Source: Methanolobus sp. WCC4 (GTDB lineage: Archaea; Halobacteriota; Methanosarcinia; Methanosarcinales; Methanosarcinaceae). From it: 64,000 nucleotides of DNA. Positions 53,979 through 61,747 of the stretch are shown piece after piece. The stretch spans positions 1,470,480-1,534,479 of the forward strand of contig NZ_CP150629.1 in assembly GCF_038022665.1 (NCBI RefSeq), in the 5' to 3' direction. How positions within the stretch are numbered: the first letter of the stretch is position 1; the number at the start of each line of letters is the position of its first letter. Below the pieces are notes generated by a model that was given only the letters and a program-made list of their open reading frames with translations, made no database searches and had not been told where the DNA came from. A program made the position numbers and the translations under genes.

Positions 53979-54836
53979 TTACATTGCACGAAGACGCTTG
54001 ATACGCTCTTCGGTTGCAGGATGTGTTCTGAAAAGGTTCATGAGTGAGCTTCCCCTGAGCGGGTTCACGATGAACATATGTGCTGTGTGTTCGGAAGGTT
54101 GCACATCTCCTCTTCTCTGGCGGTAATGTGTGCTGCCATATTCCAGTTTCTCCAGTGCACTTGCAAGTGCCCATGGTTTCTGTGAGATACGTGCTCCTTC
54201 TTCATCAGCAGCGAACTCTCTTGACCTTGAGATCGCAAGCTGGATGATCGTTGCTGCCAGTGGAGCAACTATGGCAAGTGCCAGAAAACCTATGATGCCG
54301 CTTGCACCGTCATCATCTCTTCCGCCAAGCCCGCCGAATATCGCTGCCCATTTGACCCAGGTGGCTACCATGGTGATAACACCTGCGATGGTCGCGGCAA
54401 TAGCACTTATCAGTGTATCGCGGTTCTTTACGTGGCCCAGCTCGTGGGCAAGTACACCTTCAAGTTCATCAGCGTTCAACAGGTCAAGTATCCCTGTTGT
54501 AGCAGCCACTGCTGCGTGCTGGGGGTCCCTGCCTGTTGCGAATGCATTCGGCATGGATGTGTGTACGATATAGACCTTTGGCATTGGCAGATTCGCACGC
54601 ATTGCCAGTTTCTGTACTATGCCATAAAGCTCAGGAGCTTCAGCTGATGTGACTTCCTGCGCACGGTACATTTTCAGGACTATCTTATCACTATACCAGT
54701 AACTTCCAAAATTCATGACTATCGCGAATATAAAAGCGATGATCATTCCTGACGTTCCACCAAGCATCTGGCCTACAATGACCAAAAGACCGGTTAAGGA
54801 TGCCAGCAATAAAGTGGTTTTTATCATATTTCCCAT
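53979..54836 (-). CDS. htpX: HtpX-like membrane zinc metalloprotease (M48)
   Basis: A 285-residue integral membrane protease that degrades misfolded membrane proteins. The zinc motif HELGH is in [18 protein letters not shown], the third ligand Glu in [14 protein letters not shown]. Two N-terminal helices ([39 protein letters not shown]) and two further helices after the active site ([41 protein letters not shown]) match HtpX. The end [18 protein letters not shown] is conserved. The start has GAGGAATTTC upstream; the fourth residue Met is an alternative start. Confidence 0.95.
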
Positions 54837-55080
54837 GAAATTCCTCTTAGATAGAATATAGTTCTAAGGCACAATTTAGTTGTATGTTCTTCTATAAAAA
54901 TCTACCTGTTATTTTATTATTCCTTGTTAATAAATATAAATATCAGTAGACTTCAATAAACTTTAAAGAACTGAAAAAGAGTGGTCTTTTATATTTGAGT
55001 AACAGGGTTTTTGCAGATATAAATAAATAAGAGATATATCAGATATCAAAAAGTAAAAAAAGAATATGAATGAGGTACAT

Positions 55081-55344
55081 TCATATTTCTTCGACAACGA
55101 TCTCTTCTTCAAGCTCCATCTCATCGATGAGAGCTTCAAGTTCCGCAAGCTCAGCTTCCAGATCCTGCATCTCGGTGTCCGTTATACCCACCATTTCTTC
55201 ATTGAGTGCTTCATCGGCAACACTTATGTTCTGTGTGTCTCCGGTACCTGCAGTATCTTCTGTGGTATCTTTATCAGCACAACCCGAGATTACAAGAGCA
55301 AACAGCAGAACTGCAATGATGGCGATATTCCTAAATTTGGTCAT
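55081..55344 (-). CDS. Small acidic lipoprotein B' (module copy 1)
   Basis: An 87-residue exported protein. The signal segment ends in the lipobox VISGC, so Cys21-22 is lipidated. The rest is highly acidic and helical: EALNEEMVGITDTEMQDLEAELAELEALIDEMELEEEIVVEEI. It aligns well with the product at 58328-58606 over the whole length, including the block LNEEMVGITDTEIQDIEEELAE. It lies 28 bp behind the large secreted protein, forming a two-gene module. Coiled-coil-like acidic helices tethered to the membrane suggest an anchor or adaptor (inference). Confidence 0.85.
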   Translation of the reverse strand: MTKFRNIAIIAVLLFALVISGCADKDTTEDTAGTGDTQNISVADEALNEEMVGITDTEMQDLEAELAELEALIDEMELEEEIVVEEI

Positions 55345-55372
55345 TTCTTCTCAACTCCTATATCGTATCTCA

Positions 55373-57031
55373 TCATACAGTCAACTTAATGCTCTGTGTT
55401 ATTGAATCATTGTTCAGTTCATCGCTGTCAGATTCATATGCGGTCAGAGTGACGTTATATTCTTTATAAAGAGCATATTCATGTGTTGGAGATTGTTCTG
55501 TTGAGTAATTACCATCATCAAAATCCCAGTTCCATGAAGAAGCATTCATAGAGGTATCAGTAAACGTCACATTAAGACCATCAATAGTGTAAGTGAAATT
55601 TGCAACAACTGTTACACTATCTTCTTCATTCTCTGAATCTTCATCGTCATCATCATCGACTTCCTCTTCAGATTCGTCATTGTCATCTACTTCTTCTTCT
55701 TCTTCTTCTTCATCATCAGAGGAATCATCATCATCGACATAGCGGCTGGCCCATTCGCCTTCCTCACCATTGACCTCATAGGTGCCAATGCCTGCAAGCA
55801 CTGCAGTACCTGTTCCATTGACTGTGAGTTCGATGTCACTTCCTTTGACCATCACGGTAAGCCTGCTTCCTTCGATAAAGACCTCTTCAGTGAGATTTAT
55901 GAAAACGAATGCTCTGTTGTTATCCGTGCTGTTTCCTGAATCGATGTTCGATGTCTCATAGTTCGCCTTCGATAGATTGATGTCAGCATCCCCTGCAAGG
56001 TCCTTGATAACAAGTTTTGCATATTCATTGGCTTCTATCTCTATGGATACATTACCTGATATCACAGCAGTTCCGTTTCCTTCTGCTGCCAGTGTTCCAG
56101 TACCTGTAAGTACCACTACGCCCTCTCTTTCTTTCTTGAGCTCCTGAAGCATTTTCCTTAGAATGGCATTAGCGTCCTTGATGTCCTCACCCGCTTTAAC
56201 GATGTATCTGTTTGCTTCACGGATATTCTGTCCATTATTCCCATTCCCGTAGGTGTTTCTTGCATTAACCTGATTCTCTTTTGCATCATCTATGAGATCT
56301 TTGTACTCTTCAAGCATCTCTTCGAGGTCTTCTACATCTTCACCATTCTCTTTCATGGTAGTTATCTCATTCTCAAGGCGTACCACAAGTTTCTCAGATG
56401 TCTTGAGGACAGCATTGATCTTGTTATCGATAGCTTTACTGGAAGCTGTTACACGATTCTTGCGTGCATCGTTCCATATGTCCCTGATGTTCTTTGCAGA
56501 GTCTGCAAGTTCCTCTCTGGTAGTTGCTTTTTCAACATTGTCCCTTTCCTCTTCAAGAGCATCGATGTATTCATTGTCTTCATCGAGCAGAGATATCATG
56601 TAATCGATGGTGTCTATAAGGTATTCCTTGGTTGCATTGATAGCTTCTTCAGTGTCAAGTTTCGGGTTCTTTGATCTGATATCTGCAAATTTGATCTTTG
56701 CTGTCTGATAGTCTGATTCAGAATTCCTGCTTTCACTTCTTTTTCGGTTTGCATCTTCAGTGGCATTAAGCATGATCCTGTCTCTGTCACGTACCTGATC
56801 TGTAGTGGAATCATCTTCATCATCTGAAGACTCGTCAGAATCTTCTCCGTCATCACTGTCATCATCTTGATCACTATCAGCTACATTGTCATTTCCATTG
56901 TTTCCTCTTATGGTCTTTTCACCATAGTTCTTTGAGTTATCAGAGTCTGCAAGTGCTCCTGTAGGAAAGATGCTCATCAGCATCAACAGTACCACAAGGC
57001 ATGCAAATATCCTCATACCGTTTATTTTCAT
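55373..57031 (-). CDS. Secreted helical/beta protein with PKD domain, A' (module copy 1)
   Basis: A 552-residue secreted protein. Signal peptide residues 1-28 (cut after ALA). A long acidic stretch includes SDQDDDSDDGEDSDESSDDEDD, then DQVRDRDRI. Residues about 110-310 are helical and Lys/Glu-rich. A beta domain follows (GTGTLAAEGNGTAVISGNVSIEIEANEYAKLVIKDLAGDADINLS, then SNIDSGNSTDNNRAFVFINLTEEVFIEGSRLTVMVKGSDIELTVNGTGTAVLAGIGTYEVNG). After an Asp/Glu linker, a C-terminal PKD domain (WNWDFDDGNYSTEQSPTHEYALYKEYNVTLTAYE) ends it. The paralogue at 58675 lacks the acidic stretches and the PKD domain. Confidence 0.85.
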   Translation of the reverse strand: MKINGMRIFACLVVLLMLMSIFPTGALADSDNSKNYGEKTIRGNNGNDNVADSDQDDDSDDGEDSDESSDDEDDSTTDQVRDRDRIMLNATEDANRKRSESRNSESDYQTAKIKFADIRSKNPKLDTEEAINATKEYLIDTIDYMISLLDEDNEYIDALEEERDNVEKATTREELADSAKNIRDIWNDARKNRVTASSKAIDNKINAVLKTSEKLVVRLENEITTMKENGEDVEDLEEMLEEYKDLIDDAKENQVNARNTYGNGNNGQNIREANRYIVKAGEDIKDANAILRKMLQELKKEREGVVVLTGTGTLAAEGNGTAVISGNVSIEIEANEYAKLVIKDLAGDADINLSKANYETSNIDSGNSTDNNRAFVFINLTEEVFIEGSRLTVMVKGSDIELTVNGTGTAVLAGIGTYEVNGEEGEWASRYVDDDDSSDDEEEEEEEVDDNDESEEEVDDDDDEDSENEEDSVTVVANFTYTIDGLNVTFTDTSMNASSWNWDFDDGNYSTEQSPTHEYALYKEYNVTLTAYESDSDELNNDSITQSIKLTV

Positions 57032-57205
57032 TTTTACCCTCCGTTCTCTTTCTGTTTTTCGCTCATTTTCATTTTTTCTATTATTGAGTATTATATAAGA
57101 AATTGATAAAGATTATGATGTCCTTCTTTCAGGACCACAGATAAATAAATAGGAAGATCCGACCTGTCAGTCGAATCTATCTTTTTAGATACTCCCTGTC
57201 CGGTA

Positions 57206-57526
57206 TTAATCCTGACATGAGCCATCTCTTTGAGGCCCATCTCCGTCGCAGTCTCCATCTCCCTTACAGTTTGTTCCATCACAACTTCCATCACAATCTC
57301 CCTTACAGTTTGTTCCATCACAATCTCCATTACTGTTACCTGTGATCTCTGTTATGGAGCTATCGGCATTTATGCCTGCCCTTGTCTGATCCCTTGGTGC
57401 GAAATCCGGTACACCGGTACAATCTTCCTCTCTGTCTCTAACCTGGTCACAAGCCATTGCTGTTATGGTGAATATACTAAGCAACATTATAGTTACAGCT
57501 ACTAGTGTGAACACTCTTATTTTCAT
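57206..57526 (-). CDS. Small secreted Cys/Asp/Gly repeat protein
   Basis: A 106-residue exported protein. The hydrophobic signal (MKIRVFTLVAVTIMLLSIFT) ends at AMA, with Cys next (ACDQVRDREEDCTG). The mature start DQVRDRE is shared with the two large neighbours (DQVRDRDR, VQDRDR). The C-terminal half has the repeats DCDGTNCKGDCDGSCDGTNCK and nine cysteines overall, matching a 39-bp tandem repeat in DNA (57258-57323). Asp/Gly/Cys repeats suggest metal binding or disulfide cross-linking. The start has GGGAG. Its promoter copies that of the module at 58675. Confidence 0.75.
   Translation of the reverse strand: MKIRVFTLVAVTIMLLSIFTITAMACDQVRDREEDCTGVPDFAPRDQTRAGINADSSITEITGNSNGDCDGTNCKGDCDGSCDGTNCKGDGDCDGDGPQRDGSCQD
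57258..57323. repeat. Tandem repeat, period 39 bp, in coding sequence
   Basis: A 27-bp block (57258-57284) recurs identically at 57297-57323, giving 13-residue period Cys/Asp/Gly repeats in the small secreted protein. It suggests recent expansion by slippage or unequal exchange. Confidence 0.75.
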
Positions 57527-57561
57527 TTAATTCTCCCTCTGCGTTAATCTGTTTGAATAGT

Positions 57562-57620
57562 GTAAGTGTAAGTTTAAACGAGATAGCTTGGTGGTTAATC
57601 CGATACAAACCTACACTTAC
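57562..57620 (-). promoter_or_regulatory. 5' leader stem-loop, copy 1
   Basis: GTAAGTGTAAGTTT (57562-57575) pairs with AAACCTACACTTAC (57607-57620) at 13 of 14 positions around a 31-nt loop. The TATA-like CTTATAT (57641-57648, minus strand) predicts a start about 26 bp away, at the outer base of the stem. So the transcript of the small Cys protein probably begins with this hairpin. Confidence 0.6.
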
Positions 57621-57642
57621 AATCCTTCTTTCGTCGAGACAG

Positions 57643-57664
57643 ATATAAGCATACTTTACTTCAT
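57643..57664 (-). promoter_or_regulatory. Duplicated promoter block, copy 1
   Basis: 22 bp identical to 60156-60177, containing the minus-strand TATA-like CTTATAT. It lies about 120 bp upstream of the small secreted protein gene. Confidence 0.6.
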
Positions 57665-57927
57665 AGATACTTTAAGTCTGAATCCATGTAAAAAGAAGGC
57701 TTATAATGGTTTATTTTACTTTATGATCCTTCATCATGCTTCAGATATGTCTTTGAACTTGTGGGCGAAAGTTGTTTTTTCCTTCGTGTACTGAACAAAA
57801 ATATAGCTTTGTTCAATATGGTGCATTATCCATAGTGTAATATGTGCTGACAATCCAACCTTTGAAAAGATAAGTTCTTTACTAAGCTGCAGGAGTGGGA
57901 TCTCATGACATTGGGTTATGTTTATTC

Positions 57928-58114
57928 GACTCTGTTGAAATCCTGCTGATCATGAGTTTTGAATCACAACCGCAGATCAACACAGATACATCTATCTACA
58001 TCGAGTTGGATGCCTGCTGAAATTTCAGCAGGCCATAAAGATAGCGTTCATCTATATCTTCGTACATCTGCATGCATCTGTGGATCTATAGCTATAAGAG
58101 ATTTCTACAGAGCC
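57928..58114 (+). mobile_element. MITE-like hairpin repeat between module copies
   Basis: Left end GACTCTGTTGAAATCCTG, right end GATTTCTACAGAGCC. Internal hairpin CCTGCTGAA-AT-TTCAGCAGG (58013-58032) and an upstream part AACACAGATACATCTATCTA in the same order as 13855-14047. Flanks GTTTATTC and TTTCCTTC match at only 5 of 8 positions, so a target duplication is not clear. Confidence 0.75.
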
Positions 58115-58327
58115 TTTCCTTCAATAAAGACCTAAGACAATGTTCTTTCACTTAATGATCATGATTTGCTGTATGGAAGCAATTCATGTGGAGTAACAGC
58201 TACGGAGTAACAGCTAGGGTGGATGACGGCGTCTAACATCGATAATGATCTTCAGGGTAAAATAGTAAAATTCTCAGTTAGTAGATACTAAAAAGGTAAA
58301 AGAAGGGGAAACATGAATGATGATCAT

Positions 58328-58606
58328 TCATATTTCTTCGACCACAATATCACTTTCAATATCCGTTCCATTTGTTTCGTTGATCAGTGTCTCTATCTCT
58401 GCAAGTTCTTCTTCAATATCCTGTATCTCGGTGTCTGTGATACCTACCATTTCCTCATTTAATGTTTCTTCTGCAAGGGATGTATCAACATCTTCAATAT
58501 CTTCTGAAGCTTTCTGGTCTTCCGTAGATGCATTGTCCGCACAACCGGATACTATAAGTCCAAGGAACAGAACTGCCATTATTACAAGGTATTTCGTCTT
58601 TACCAT
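58328..58606 (-). CDS. Small acidic lipoprotein B (module copy 2)
   Basis: A 92-residue paralogue of the product at 55081-55344. The signal segment (VKTKYLVIMAVLFLGLIVSGC) has a lipobox. The mature part is acidic and contains TLNEEMVGITDTEIQDIEEELAEIETLI, close to LNEEMVGITDTEMQDLEAELAELEALI of the paralogue. Start 58606 aligns with the paralogue's start; ATG 58612 (two codons upstream, with AGGAG four bases before) is an alternative. It lies 68 bp behind the large module protein at 58675. Confidence 0.85.
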   Translation of the reverse strand: MVKTKYLVIMAVLFLGLIVSGCADNASTEDQKASEDIEDVDTSLAEETLNEEMVGITDTEIQDIEEELAEIETLINETNGTDIESDIVVEEI

Positions 58607-58674
58607 GTACATTCATCTCCTATTATCACTTATATTGTCATTTTATATGATGATGTTCACTGTTGTGTGCTGTC

Positions 58675-59835
58675 CTATTCTTCAACATCTTCAGTATCAT
58701 TTGCTTCAGGTGCAGCCCATTCCTTCTCTACACCTTCCACTTCATAGGTGCCTTCTCCCGTGAGTACGACGTTTCCGCTTCCTTCAGCATCAAGGGATAT
58801 GTCTGTTCCACGCAGTGTGACGATAAGGCGGCTCCCTTCTATCATTACATCTCCTGTGAGGTTGTGATATACATATGCCCTGTTGTCCACATCACTGTTA
58901 CCTGCATCGATGTTCGAATATCCATATGTGGCATCCCCTGTGTCCACTTCTGCATCTCCTGCCATATCCTTGATGACAAGTGTGGCATTGTCTGCAGTGA
59001 AGCTCATTGTGACATCGCCGGAAAGGACAACAACTCCGTTACCTTCAGCCGACAGTGCTCCCTCTCCAGTGAGCGTTACAAGTCCTTCGCGGTATTGCTT
59101 GAGTTCCACCAGCATCTCTTCAAGCACACCATTTGCCTGTCTGATGCTCATGCCAGCCTGCCTCATATTCTGAACAGATCGCATCTGTCCCTGTACGTTT
59201 CCGTAACCTGCCTGTTTCTGATACTGCTCTGCTTCGGCAATATGGGCATTATATTGTTCAAGAAGTCCTTCAAGTTCGGTTACATCTTCACCTCTGGCTT
59301 CCATACGCATGATCTCGTTCTCAAGGCGAAGTGCCATTGCCTGGGATGTCCTTATGACCGCAGTCATCTTGTTGTTGACAGAATTGGCTGCTGAAGCAGC
59401 TTTTTCTTCACGTGCCTCTCTCCAGATCTCCCTGACTTCCCGGGCTGCTTCAGCAAGTTCCGCTCTTGTGGTTGCTTCAGCTACATCATCCTTTATAGCG
59501 GTCAGTTCCTCTGTATATTCTTCATTTTCAAGGGTATCTATCATTATGTCAATGGTACTGTTCAGATATTCCTTCGCAGCTTCCATCGCCTCTTCTGTAT
59601 TAAGGGCAGAATTGTTTGCTTTGATACGCAGGAAGTTCTCTGTTGCTTCTCCGTATCTCTCCCTGACAGTCATATTCTGTCTGAACTGTTCCATGGTAGT
59701 AGCATTTATCCTGTCTCTGTCCTGTACCCTTTCCTGCAGGCCATCTGACCCGGCGATCGCTGATGCCGGAACAATACTTGTCAGCATCATCATAATGGCA
59801 AAGCATAGAAATATCTTCATTATCTTGTTTTTCAT
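58675..59835 (-). CDS. Secreted helical/beta protein A (module copy 2)
   Basis: A 386-residue exported protein. Signal peptide (MKIFLCFAIMMMLTSIVPASA, cut near residue 27). Residues about 30-270 are helical and charged (RVQDRDRINATTMEQFRQ; IKANNSALNTEEAMEAAKEYLNSTIDIMIDTLENEEY; AAREVREIWREAREEKAASAANSVNNKMTAVIRTSQAMALRLENEIMRME). A beta domain follows (LTGEGALSAEGNGVVVLSGDVTMSF; LVIKDMAGDAEVDTGDATYGYSNIDAGNSDVDNRAYVYHNLTGDVMIEGSRL). It ends EWAAPEANDTEDVEE. It shares both domains with the protein at 55373 but is shorter. No known family. The leader of the gene carries two stem-loops. Confidence 0.85.
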   Translation of the reverse strand: MKNKIMKIFLCFAIMMMLTSIVPASAIAGSDGLQERVQDRDRINATTMEQFRQNMTVRERYGEATENFLRIKANNSALNTEEAMEAAKEYLNSTIDIMIDTLENEEYTEELTAIKDDVAEATTRAELAEAAREVREIWREAREEKAASAANSVNNKMTAVIRTSQAMALRLENEIMRMEARGEDVTELEGLLEQYNAHIAEAEQYQKQAGYGNVQGQMRSVQNMRQAGMSIRQANGVLEEMLVELKQYREGLVTLTGEGALSAEGNGVVVLSGDVTMSFTADNATLVIKDMAGDAEVDTGDATYGYSNIDAGNSDVDNRAYVYHNLTGDVMIEGSRLIVTLRGTDISLDAEGSGNVVLTGEGTYEVEGVEKEWAAPEANDTEDVEE

Positions 59836-59948
59836 ATTGTTCTCTCCAGTTCTCTATGTACTTTCTTTAATTAATTCAATTTTTCAATGTTATGTGTGAA
59901 CAAAAGTATAATGTTCCTTTTATGTGCTTGAATAAGTAGGTGATAGTA

Positions 59949-59973
59949 GGATTCGGCAGATATTGCCGAATCC
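59949..59973 (-). promoter_or_regulatory. Second leader hairpin of module protein A
   Basis: GGATTCGGCA (59949-59958) and TGCCGAATCC (59964-59973) form a perfect 10-bp stem with a 5-nt loop, 114 bp upstream of the start codon, inside the predicted 5' leader. No T tract follows on either strand, so it is not a standard terminator. Confidence 0.5.
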
Positions 59974-60072
59974 CTGTTTCATATCTGTTCCCTCTTATCC
60001 CGGACATGAAACTCGTTTTTTTTTGGATTGTCTCCATTACCACCCCTACATGCCAGTTGCTGGCTCATAGGT

Positions 60073-60132
60073 GTAAGCGCAGGTTTGGATGGGATGACCA
60101 GGTAGTACATCCGATCATGGCCAGTGGCTTAC
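60073..60132 (-). promoter_or_regulatory. 5' leader inverted repeat, copy 2
   Basis: GTAAGC (60073-60078) pairs with GCTTAC (60127-60132), and GGATG (60087-60091) with CATCC (60108-60112). The position matches the stem at 57562-57620 of the duplicated leader. The innermost pair of the outer stem has changed from T-A to C-G, a compensatory change. The predicted start falls at the outer base of the stem. Confidence 0.5.
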
Positions 60133-60155
60133 AATTCCATCTTTTGCAGAACTGA

Positions 60156-60177
60156 ATATAAGCATACTTTACTTCAT
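60156..60177 (-). promoter_or_regulatory. Duplicated promoter block, copy 2
   Basis: Identical over 22 bp to 57643-57664, with the minus-strand TATA-like CTTATAT. It lies about 320 bp upstream of the module protein A start, implying a leader of about 297 nt. Confidence 0.6.
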
Positions 60178-60300
60178 ATGGACTTCAGGAATTGTCTGGT
60201 ACTAAAAAAAGGCTTAAAAATGGTTATTTTACTTGATAGGACTTTATAATACTTCAGATGGAGTAACTTTCATATTTAGTTCCCAGTAACAATTATATGG

Positions 60301-61137
60301 GTGTACTATGTAAATATACATCCTGTGTTAAAGAATAAGATCATCCTGCTATGTTCTATTAGCATATTCCTACTTGCATGTGTGCCACTATCAAATGCCA
60401 CAGAAGTGGCAACTATCCATGGCGCAGTATATGAATGGGATTCCTTTGAACCTCTTGAGAACGTTATCGTAGATGTTGATTCAACACCACCCCAGTCCAT
60501 GCTTGCAAAATATGGTCTTTATTCCTTTGATCTTGTACCGGGCAATTACACTATACTGGCCAGCTATTACCGGGGCAATGACCTTGTAGCTTATGCAGAG
60601 GAAGAGGTCACTATCACAGACGATGGTGATTACGTTATGGATCTTATCCTGCTCCCGGTTTATTATGATACTTCCTTCAATGAGAGCGAGTTTGCAGAAC
60701 TCGATGAGATCGCCAGTTTTTCAGAGGAAGGAGGGGACAGTGCATCTTTATCTACAGGTACGATGCTGGTCATTCTCATTATTGTGGTTGTGCTCATTGC
60801 AGGTGCGTACTATATTGTCAAGCAGCGTAATTCAGGATCATCACCTGATGATGGTGATCATGTGCAGGATGCTGATACTGAGATGATGATGTCAGGAGAT
60901 AAATGGGATGATCTGCCTGAGGATCTTCGTCAGGTCGTGGGTATCATTGAAAGGAATGATGGTCGTATCACCCAGAAGGACCTGCGTACAAAGGTAAAGC
61001 ACTCAGAGGCGAAGGTCAGCCTTATGATATCGGACCTTGAAAGCCGTGGCATTGTCCGAAAATTCAAGAAGGGACGTGGGAATGTTATCATTCTTGAAGA
61101 TACTGCTGATACGGACGAACCAAACCAAAATATATAA
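60301..61137 (+). CDS. Membrane-anchored winged-helix protein with extracellular beta domain
   Basis: A 278-residue one-component-sensor-like protein. Signal/anchor helix residues about 13-32 (IILLCSISIFLLACVPLSNA). Then an extracellular carboxypeptidase-regulatory-like domain (GAVYEWDSFEPLENVIVDVD ... YGLYSFDLVPGNYTILASYYRG), a transmembrane helix about 151-171 (GTMLVILIIVVVLIAGAYYIV), and a cytoplasmic winged helix (LPEDLRQVVGIIERNDGRITQKDLRTKVKHSEAKVSLMISDLESRGIVRKFKKGRGNVIIL). The GTG start at 60301 has no strong ribosome site. Divergent from the secreted module and sharing its intergenic region, it is a good candidate regulator (inference). Confidence 0.85.
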   Translation: MYYVNIHPVLKNKIILLCSISIFLLACVPLSNATEVATIHGAVYEWDSFEPLENVIVDVDSTPPQSMLAKYGLYSFDLVPGNYTILASYYRGNDLVAYAEEEVTITDDGDYVMDLILLPVYYDTSFNESEFAELDEIASFSEEGGDSASLSTGTMLVILIIVVVLIAGAYYIVKQRNSGSSPDDGDHVQDADTEMMMSGDKWDDLPEDLRQVVGIIERNDGRITQKDLRTKVKHSEAKVSLMISDLESRGIVRKFKKGRGNVIILEDTADTDEPNQNI

Positions 61138-61234
61138 CTGCATTCAATGTGTATGGAAGAAACGCATTGACAAATAGTTCTAATTATGTATTTTATGATA
61201 TTAACGACATTTATGATATTTAATGAGGGTATAC

Positions 61235-61747
61235 ATGCGAGTTTCCATGGACATTGAGTTAAAGGATATCCCCGGGCAGTTACTTCTTGCCTTAAAACCG
61301 GTCTCCGAGTTCAAAGGCAATCTTATATCAGTGGTACACCACCACGAGAAGAGGACTCCCCGCGGTACAATTCCGGTTCAGATAGTGTTCGAGACAAAAC
61401 CGGACAAGCTTGATGATATTGTTGCAAGTCTTGAAGAAAGTGACATCAGTATCGTGCGCATCGATGAGAAGAGATACTTCGAGCACGGCGCTGTCATACT
61501 TATAGGACATATAGTCCACACGGACATACAGGATACTATCGATTCCATTGACAATACAGGTTATGCAGAGATAGTGGATCTCAACCTTTCAATGCCAAAG
61601 ATCAACATGGCATCCTCAGCATCCCTTAAGATCGATGCAGTGAGCAAAGAGCATCTGGCACAGGCAATCGATATATTGAAGGATATCGCCGAGAAGAAGG
61701 ACCTGCTTGTCATTGAACCTATAAAGAGCCAACTGGGGGCGATCTGA
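61235..61747 (+). CDS. ACT-domain-like regulatory protein (amino acid binding)
   Basis: A 170-residue cytoplasmic protein that begins MDIELKDIPGQLLLALKPVSEFKGNLISVVHHHEKRTPRGTIPVQIVFE, a typical ACT-type ligand-binding fold. A second half (GHIVHTDIQDTIDSIDNTGYAEIVDLNLSMPKINMASSASLKIDAV) may be a further ACT-like repeat. ATG 61235 is preferred: GAGGGT sits just before it and an upstream ATG (61223) is within the ribosome site. The stop overlaps the start of homoserine dehydrogenase by one base, so it probably regulates that enzyme's pathway. Confidence 0.85.
   Translation: MRVSMDIELKDIPGQLLLALKPVSEFKGNLISVVHHHEKRTPRGTIPVQIVFETKPDKLDDIVASLEESDISIVRIDEKRYFEHGAVILIGHIVHTDIQDTIDSIDNTGYAEIVDLNLSMPKINMASSASLKIDAVSKEHLAQAIDILKDIAEKKDLLVIEPIKSQLGAI

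Follow-up and report, generated by a model that had tools for sequence, protein, structure and literature searches.

An archaeal gene module of exported proteins and a linked membrane winged-helix protein that may read the state of the cell envelope

What does a membrane-anchored winged-helix protein do beside a duplicated pair of genes for exported proteins? The question is raised by a locus of Methanolobus sp. WCC4, contained in the window studied here (the whole stretch of DNA analysed, 64,000 nucleotides, positions 1470480-1534479 of a 2.85-Mb single-contig genome; feature positions are those of the window unless marked otherwise). Among named genomes, those closest to it by this module are Methanolobus species. 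A preliminary description of this DNA had reported two pairs of genes, each for a larger secreted protein (A) and a small acidic lipoprotein (B), together with a short secreted protein (C) and a divergent membrane winged-helix protein (W), and all six open reading frames (B1, A1, C, B2, A2 and W) were found where it had placed them. Our favoured reading, to which we give a probability of about 0.58, is that W senses the condition of the cell envelope and regulates the A-B(-C) genes divergent from it, as well as, in this species, a gene for a surface-layer (S-layer) protein, with A and B serving both as partner and as output. At the level of sequence, the locus presents a module, conserved linkage, paralogous A-W pairs and a common DNA element.

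The proposed module of A, B and W, including its linked membrane regulator, is borne out by the order of the genes. In type-1 stretches of the host family, B adjoins A in 26 of 26, and hom, an ACT-domain gene and W precede a divergent A in 25 of 26; the one stretch that departs from this, L045, holds an additional A-B pair with no W. On the far side, most of these stretches have htpX and aroA. The former was considered as an envelope-stress partner and set aside; in the host family it belongs to a conserved neighbourhood. Type-2 loci have A' followed by W' on the same strand, and the one in this genome (L031) holds two A' and one W' on one strand (genome positions 923880-927684; L031 6881-10685). 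Across named genomes, A stands beside W at 69 of 79 W loci, 41 times divergently (within 1.8 kb) and 28 times upstream on the same strand (within 2.5 kb); the other ten comprise six at a contig edge and four without A, and both A and B are present at 40 of the 79. These distinct loci come from the 80 best of 164 confirmed stretches; several of the genomes contributed two loci, and some had also fed the profiles. Among order-mate stretches, B lies beside A in 14 of 20 (in L133 as an open reading frame overlapping A), and W lies beside A in L133, L136-L140, L192 and L193. Outside the class, 20 loci hand-picked from the matches listed include six with A beside W, three of which also have B. In L382 (4541-6014), A is split between two adjacent genes, one for the helical and one for the beta part, and each is divergent from W; this is independent evidence that the two parts of A and W belong together. 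At L378 and L379, a divergent secreted helical protein falls below the threshold for A. A 68-aa W fragment at L046 (9844-10050) sits between two tandem A-B pairs and is likely the remnant of a duplication that once included W.

Judged by its distribution, A-B-W is an old module and not a local oddity. The A2 protein has matches in 98 of 111 genomes of the host family, and a profile of the A core (E<=0.01) matches 166 of 237 genomes of the class, reaching families f2-f5 of the order and family f6 of the class, with two weak matches only in family f7. A profile of the W ectodomain, searched at E<=0.001 on 236 of the 237 genomes, matches 158. Individual places given here from the searches with A2, the A core, the W ectodomain, the DNA element and PF07752 are among the matches listed. 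When the two listings were compared by hand, 151 genomes had both proteins, 15 had A only and 7 had W only; the small-genome genera g6 and g8 have neither, save for one weak A match in g6 (E 0.0036). Across the phylum, the W ectodomain is found at E<=1e-6 in 110 of 344 genomes, its own class included, and extends to further families outside the class. Genus g13, which we take to be Methanosarcina and genetically tractable, has both type-1 and type-2 forms.

The two types are also separated in quick trees. Type-1 and type-2 A fall on two sides of one branch with support of 99, and the W tree gives the same split with support of 73, which is not firm, and with several long branches flagged. Matching splits of this kind are expected if A and W descend as pairs. 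Within the genus, A1 and A2 of the window represent two lineages, each also with single-copy species, so the tandem duplication looks old and would have been followed by losses.

The anatomy of W is consistent with a regulator. Its gene (60301..61137, plus strand; identified by open reading frame, Pfam, alignment and hydropathy) encodes an ectodomain at about 60400-60666, a hydrophobic segment at about 60757-60822 and a winged helix at about 60919-61095. The winged helix is PF24034 (DUF7343; E 1.1e-17, over cut-off), and at E<=0.1 this family matches all 44 W relatives, with a best value of 2.6e-20. In each of the 44, one hydrophobic segment, defined by a hydropathy value above 1.6 in a 19-residue window, separates the ectodomain from the winged helix, and in 43 it is followed by at least two Lys or Arg within 15 residues. 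The ectodomain keeps 10 invariant positions across 50 sequences. CarboxypepD_reg scores 15.1 bits on the N-terminal half of the window W, below the cut-off of 32.3, and matches 26 of the 44 relatives at E<=0.1 (best 2.1e-6). A PDB sequence search with W returned no match, and one with the ectodomain a weak match (E 0.004) that is a fold hint only. Translation may begin at GTG 60325 instead of GTG 60301, which gives a better signal peptide. With a DNA-binding domain and a membrane segment, W fits a transmembrane transcription regulator, and it would act as a one-component, single-pass protein with the ectodomain outside and the winged helix inside the cell.

What W might bind is suggested by the non-coding DNA of the locus. 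The gaps upstream of W and of C have in common a 137-nt block with 73% identity (E 7e-13), and the duplicated element within it was absent from the preliminary description. The copy between A2 and W (60153..60264, plus strand; nhmmer E 2.6e-21; genome match 1530632-1530744, E 4.7e-21) has two TTTACTTxAT-type sites at nearly fixed spacing. The second copy, before C (57640..57755, plus strand; nhmmer E 2.8e-23; genome match 1528120-1528235, E 2.9e-22), has site 1 on the C side and site 2 about 60 bp off. The element, of about 120 bp, consists of two sites, one near TATAAGCATACTTTACTTYAT and the other near TTTTACTTGATAATACTTTAT. When 54800-61300 was scanned against Rfam for an RNA element, there were three matches, with a best E of 0.74 and none near its gathering score, and the repeated block was therefore treated as DNA. 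A tblastn search found no W pseudogene in the duplicated gap (57561-58330).

Both the spacing and the sites recur beyond this locus. A spacing scan allowing 57-63 returned 33 rows and, once two rows that repeat a place at a second spacing are set aside, 31 distinct places, with 28 at a spacing of 61, two at 60 and one at 62; 29 copies were aligned. A position model built from 25 host-genus copies was applied to other loci, with 563 control genes for comparison, and before 57 held-out A genes site 1 scored above the 95th percentile in 27 and site 2 above the 99th in 22. Of 74 A genes, 31 have the core AAAG[TC]A[TA][GAC][TC]TTAT within 350 bp, as do 5 of 756 control genes (Fisher p 9e-31); for a partly overlapping named set, the counts are 29/78 and 7/276 (p 2e-15). 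Both p-values are overstated because the core was chosen after the sequences had been viewed and the genes share ancestry. It recurs before A in other families (2/2 in f2, 4/4 in f3, 5/5 in f4 and 4/6 in f5), also where W sits elsewhere. For type-1 A, it is present in 8/10 cases in genus g7 and 4/17 in the host genus, where the misses mostly have C between A and the element. A weak copy in the same genome (genome positions 923880-923971, E 0.0097) precedes the first A' of the type-2 locus. Our inference is that the core would be an A-side B recognition element (BRE)/TATA unit and site 2 an upstream tandem repeat, which makes the whole a candidate operator plus A-side core promoter. Binding of W to this DNA is suggested because of the linkage and the footprint. 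Separately, genome G047 has a strong copy (L226 1112-1230, E 2e-14) near an assembly gap and a GNAT-like gene.

A further copy of the element brings in the S-layer. When a sequence-only model was searched in 60 genomes, three strong copies from this genome were among the matches listed, namely the two in the window and one at genome positions 1553545-1553660 (E 1.9e-18). The third lies 137 bp before an 876-aa open reading frame with two PF07752 S-layer stretches (E 2.4e-194) and also CARDB (gene and element together at genome positions 1550777-1553660; L178 4778-7661). Compared with the two consensus sites, this copy shows 0 and 1 mismatches. Genome G042 has a like arrangement, with the element 297 bp before an 872-aa S-layer open reading frame. 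Among 50 fetched S-layer loci (L240-L289, with upstream DNA not full in all), strong matches occurred only in these two genomes; for element matches not at A or W, a subset of 16 stretches was retrieved. S-layer control, if real, therefore has sequence support for two species only. On its other side, the S-layer copy is flanked by a DUF2582 winged-helix gene and glycogen-debranching/GH15 genes.

The exported proteins are the other half of the module. A1 (55373..57031, minus strand, 552 aa; open reading frame, Pfam and alignment) is predicted to be secreted and has a helical region, a beta domain, an acidic stretch and a PKD domain at about 55403-55615, and A2 (58675..59835, minus strand, 386 aa; open reading frame, alignment and AlphaFold2) has a signal peptide, a helical region and a beta domain (58711-59088). 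A query with A2 retrieves A1 at E 2.3e-83, with 45% identity in the alignment, and both A-B pairs are also detectable as repeats at the DNA level. Most of the protein details noted earlier were recovered: LVIKD[LM]AGDA, SNID[SA]GNS and EGSRL are common to both A, LNEEMVGITDTE is present in both B, and A1 has acidic runs and a PKD domain, the latter matched by PF00801 and PF18911 (best stretch residues 473-536 or 487-543; E 8e-7 and 1.5e-8). The proposed shared motif QVRDR holds for C and A1 and fails for A2, which reads RVQDRDR. PKD was the only Pfam or NCBIfam family over cut-off for the A and B proteins of the window, and an NCBIfam scan gave no match over cut-off. AlphaFold2 modelled A2 without its ends as six helices followed by beta strands, with a mean predicted local distance difference test (pLDDT) of 86.2 and a predicted template modelling score (pTM) of 0.46, and the beta domain alone (61 alignment rows) with values of 92.6 and 0.85. 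Neither model had a clear counterpart among solved structures: the beta domain reached a best Foldseek E of 0.082 and a best VIA Z of 5.9 (root-mean-square deviation 2.6, 69 aligned), and fold searches with A returned only arrangements of helical bundles, with a best Foldseek E of 0.15 and a best VIA Z of 9.3 (viral library left out). A PDB sequence search with the beta domain gave weak matches to phage beta-helix spikes (best E 0.0094), a fold hint only. One type-1 A of a g13 genome (L059 9111-10115, 334 aa) is apparently without the beta domain.

The partner proteins suggest how A might be anchored. B1 (55081..55344, minus strand, 87 aa) is a small acidic lipoprotein with the lipobox ISGC and a conserved C-terminal acidic amphipathic segment, and B2 (58328..58612, minus strand, 94 aa) is its counterpart; both rest on open reading frames and relatives. 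All 49 members of the B set have a lipobox, one of them (L049 15948-16319) probably not being a B. A lipobox of their own is carried by 8 of 16 type-2 A' compared with 0 of 42 type-1 A, and the remaining eight A', without lipobox or B, all come from the host genus. Because phmmer found no B in type-2 loci, the simplest reading is that B would keep A at the membrane while some A' anchor themselves, which might make B a replaceable anchor. Possible terminators are a pair of related inverted repeats, one at the B1 stop codon (55063..55089, with a counterpart at 58308-58334) and one at the B2 stop codon (58308..58336; repeat scan). C (57206..57526, minus strand, 106 aa; open reading frame and relatives) is a short secreted Cys/Asp/Gly protein with the stretch NGDGxCDNFVDEDGDGxCDNC in several relatives, which phmmer found in host-genus loci only. 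Its presumed 5' leader has a 15-nt inverted repeat of 93% (57561-57575 / 57607-57621).

How would these parts work together? We propose that W would sense the state of the cell envelope and control A-B(-C), and in this species the S-layer gene as well. A would be secreted and retained on the outside of the membrane, often via B, and its helical bundle and beta domain would act in the space under the S-layer. From there, A and B would probably act back on the ectodomain of W in the manner of co-components, and may do so by touching it; of the proposed steps, that W senses A/B is the least secure, and envelope or S-layer status is the putative stimulus. To our knowledge, how archaea sense damage to or change in an S-layer envelope is largely open, and the module would offer a conserved candidate sensor, with a membrane regulator, two exported partner families and a DNA element from which targets can be predicted, an S-layer gene among them. 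A bolder version, which we hold only tentatively, is that this is an ancient envelope-stress response of the phylum, in which W senses the integrity of the S-layer or pseudo-periplasm by the occupancy of its ectodomain by A/B and tunes A, B and C, in some species along with S-layer synthesis. If true, it would be an archaeal counterpart of the bacterial envelope-stress pathways built on a membrane-bound transcription factor.

Several observations weigh against envelope sensing by W, beginning with the genomes that have A or W alone, five of which are at least 90% complete (A only in G011 and G204, where both matches are weak, and in G131; W only in G119 and G150). The expectation of the preliminary description that A would not occur without B held throughout the host-family type-1 stretches and failed in type-2 loci and in 6 of 20 order-mate stretches (L122, L124, L127, L137, L138 and L140; L127 ends 0.3 kb after A). 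Its expectation that W would be kept next to A likewise held for 25/26 type-1 stretches and 69/79 named loci and failed in f3, f4 and one f2 genome (L134), where W is encoded elsewhere. Most f3/f4 genomes have both proteins despite their being unlinked, and by eye no such motif lies in front of the f3/f4 W. Outside the class, 14 of 20 loci have W without a recognised A. The core precedes type-2 A in 2/8 cases in the host genus, 1/3 in g7 and 0/7 in g13/g5, other host-family type-1 A in 1/11 and the f6 A in 0/1, and it may in part be no more than a strong TATA/BRE promoter. PF07752 genes are present in 27/27 genomes of the genus and paired with the element in 2/27. Finally, DNA binding by W, effects on expression and contact among A, B and W are predictions from sequence.

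Some of these points fit other explanations. W might autoregulate and control A-B-C as a structural surface module, the S-layer copy being an accidental promoter duplication and the envelope not being sensed. The finding of that copy in two species only agrees with this, as does the placing of the strong copies displayed, all at A, C or W except the two S-layer ones and L226. We nevertheless think it rather unlikely, as the element has its A/C side towards the S-layer gene in both species, the copy here shows so few site mismatches and the W ectodomain is conserved over several families, beyond what autoregulation needs. Improbable, in our judgement, is that the element belongs to another regulator or is a strong core promoter, with W regulating something else and staying near A by locus inertia. 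That the core resembles a BRE/TATA unit, that W in f3/f4 is away from A and the element and that most W loci outside the class are without A would suit this explanation; the W-A pairing, however, recurs in two paralogous types of different gene order and at 6/20 loci outside the class, and site 2 lies outside the core yet stands out from the controls before 22 of the 57 held-out A. The preliminary description had also raised an adhesin or a metal-binding surface structure, in keeping with the PKD domain of A1, the acidic stretches and the Cys-rich C. Such a role now appears highly improbable, since PKD is carried by 4 of 58 A relatives, the acidic tails differ in length in the alignment, no Cys or His is among the conserved A positions and C was found in the host genus only.

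No description of the system was found in the open-access literature, in agreement with the preliminary description, and A-B-W of methane-producing archaea and some relatives looks like an undescribed system that reads and adjusts the outer surface. In the passages of the sources compared, parts of it resemble known systems. Like the DUF1608/PF07752 S-layer proteins of Methanosarcinales, A would be a surface protein, and one such S-layer gene here has the dual element (PMC3361143, PMC12369344). A1 and A2 differ from these proteins in giving no match to PF07752 at E<=1, and PF07752 is not among the 25 families displayed, of 67 matched, for the 58 A relatives. W, as a putative regulator, resembles ArnR and ArnR1 of Sulfolobus acidocaldarius, which are archaeal membrane-bound one-component regulators of surface structures, although their targets are archaellum and pili promoters and the abstract names no A/B-like partners (PMC6396743). 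Transmembrane transcription regulators (TTRs) likewise combine a DNA-binding domain and a membrane segment in one chain, with a single pass as the commonest layout (about 56%); the conserved ectodomain and the exported partners A and B set W apart, the passages compared making no mention of its family (PMC10269533). VtrA/VtrC and ToxR/ToxS, as described in the passages compared, also place a membrane-bound DNA-binding protein beside the gene of an extracytoplasmic partner. Unlike in VtrA and ToxR, the DNA-binding domain of W is a C-terminal DUF7343 winged helix, and the likeness of W-A to these bacterial pairs is one of layout only (PMC9214523).

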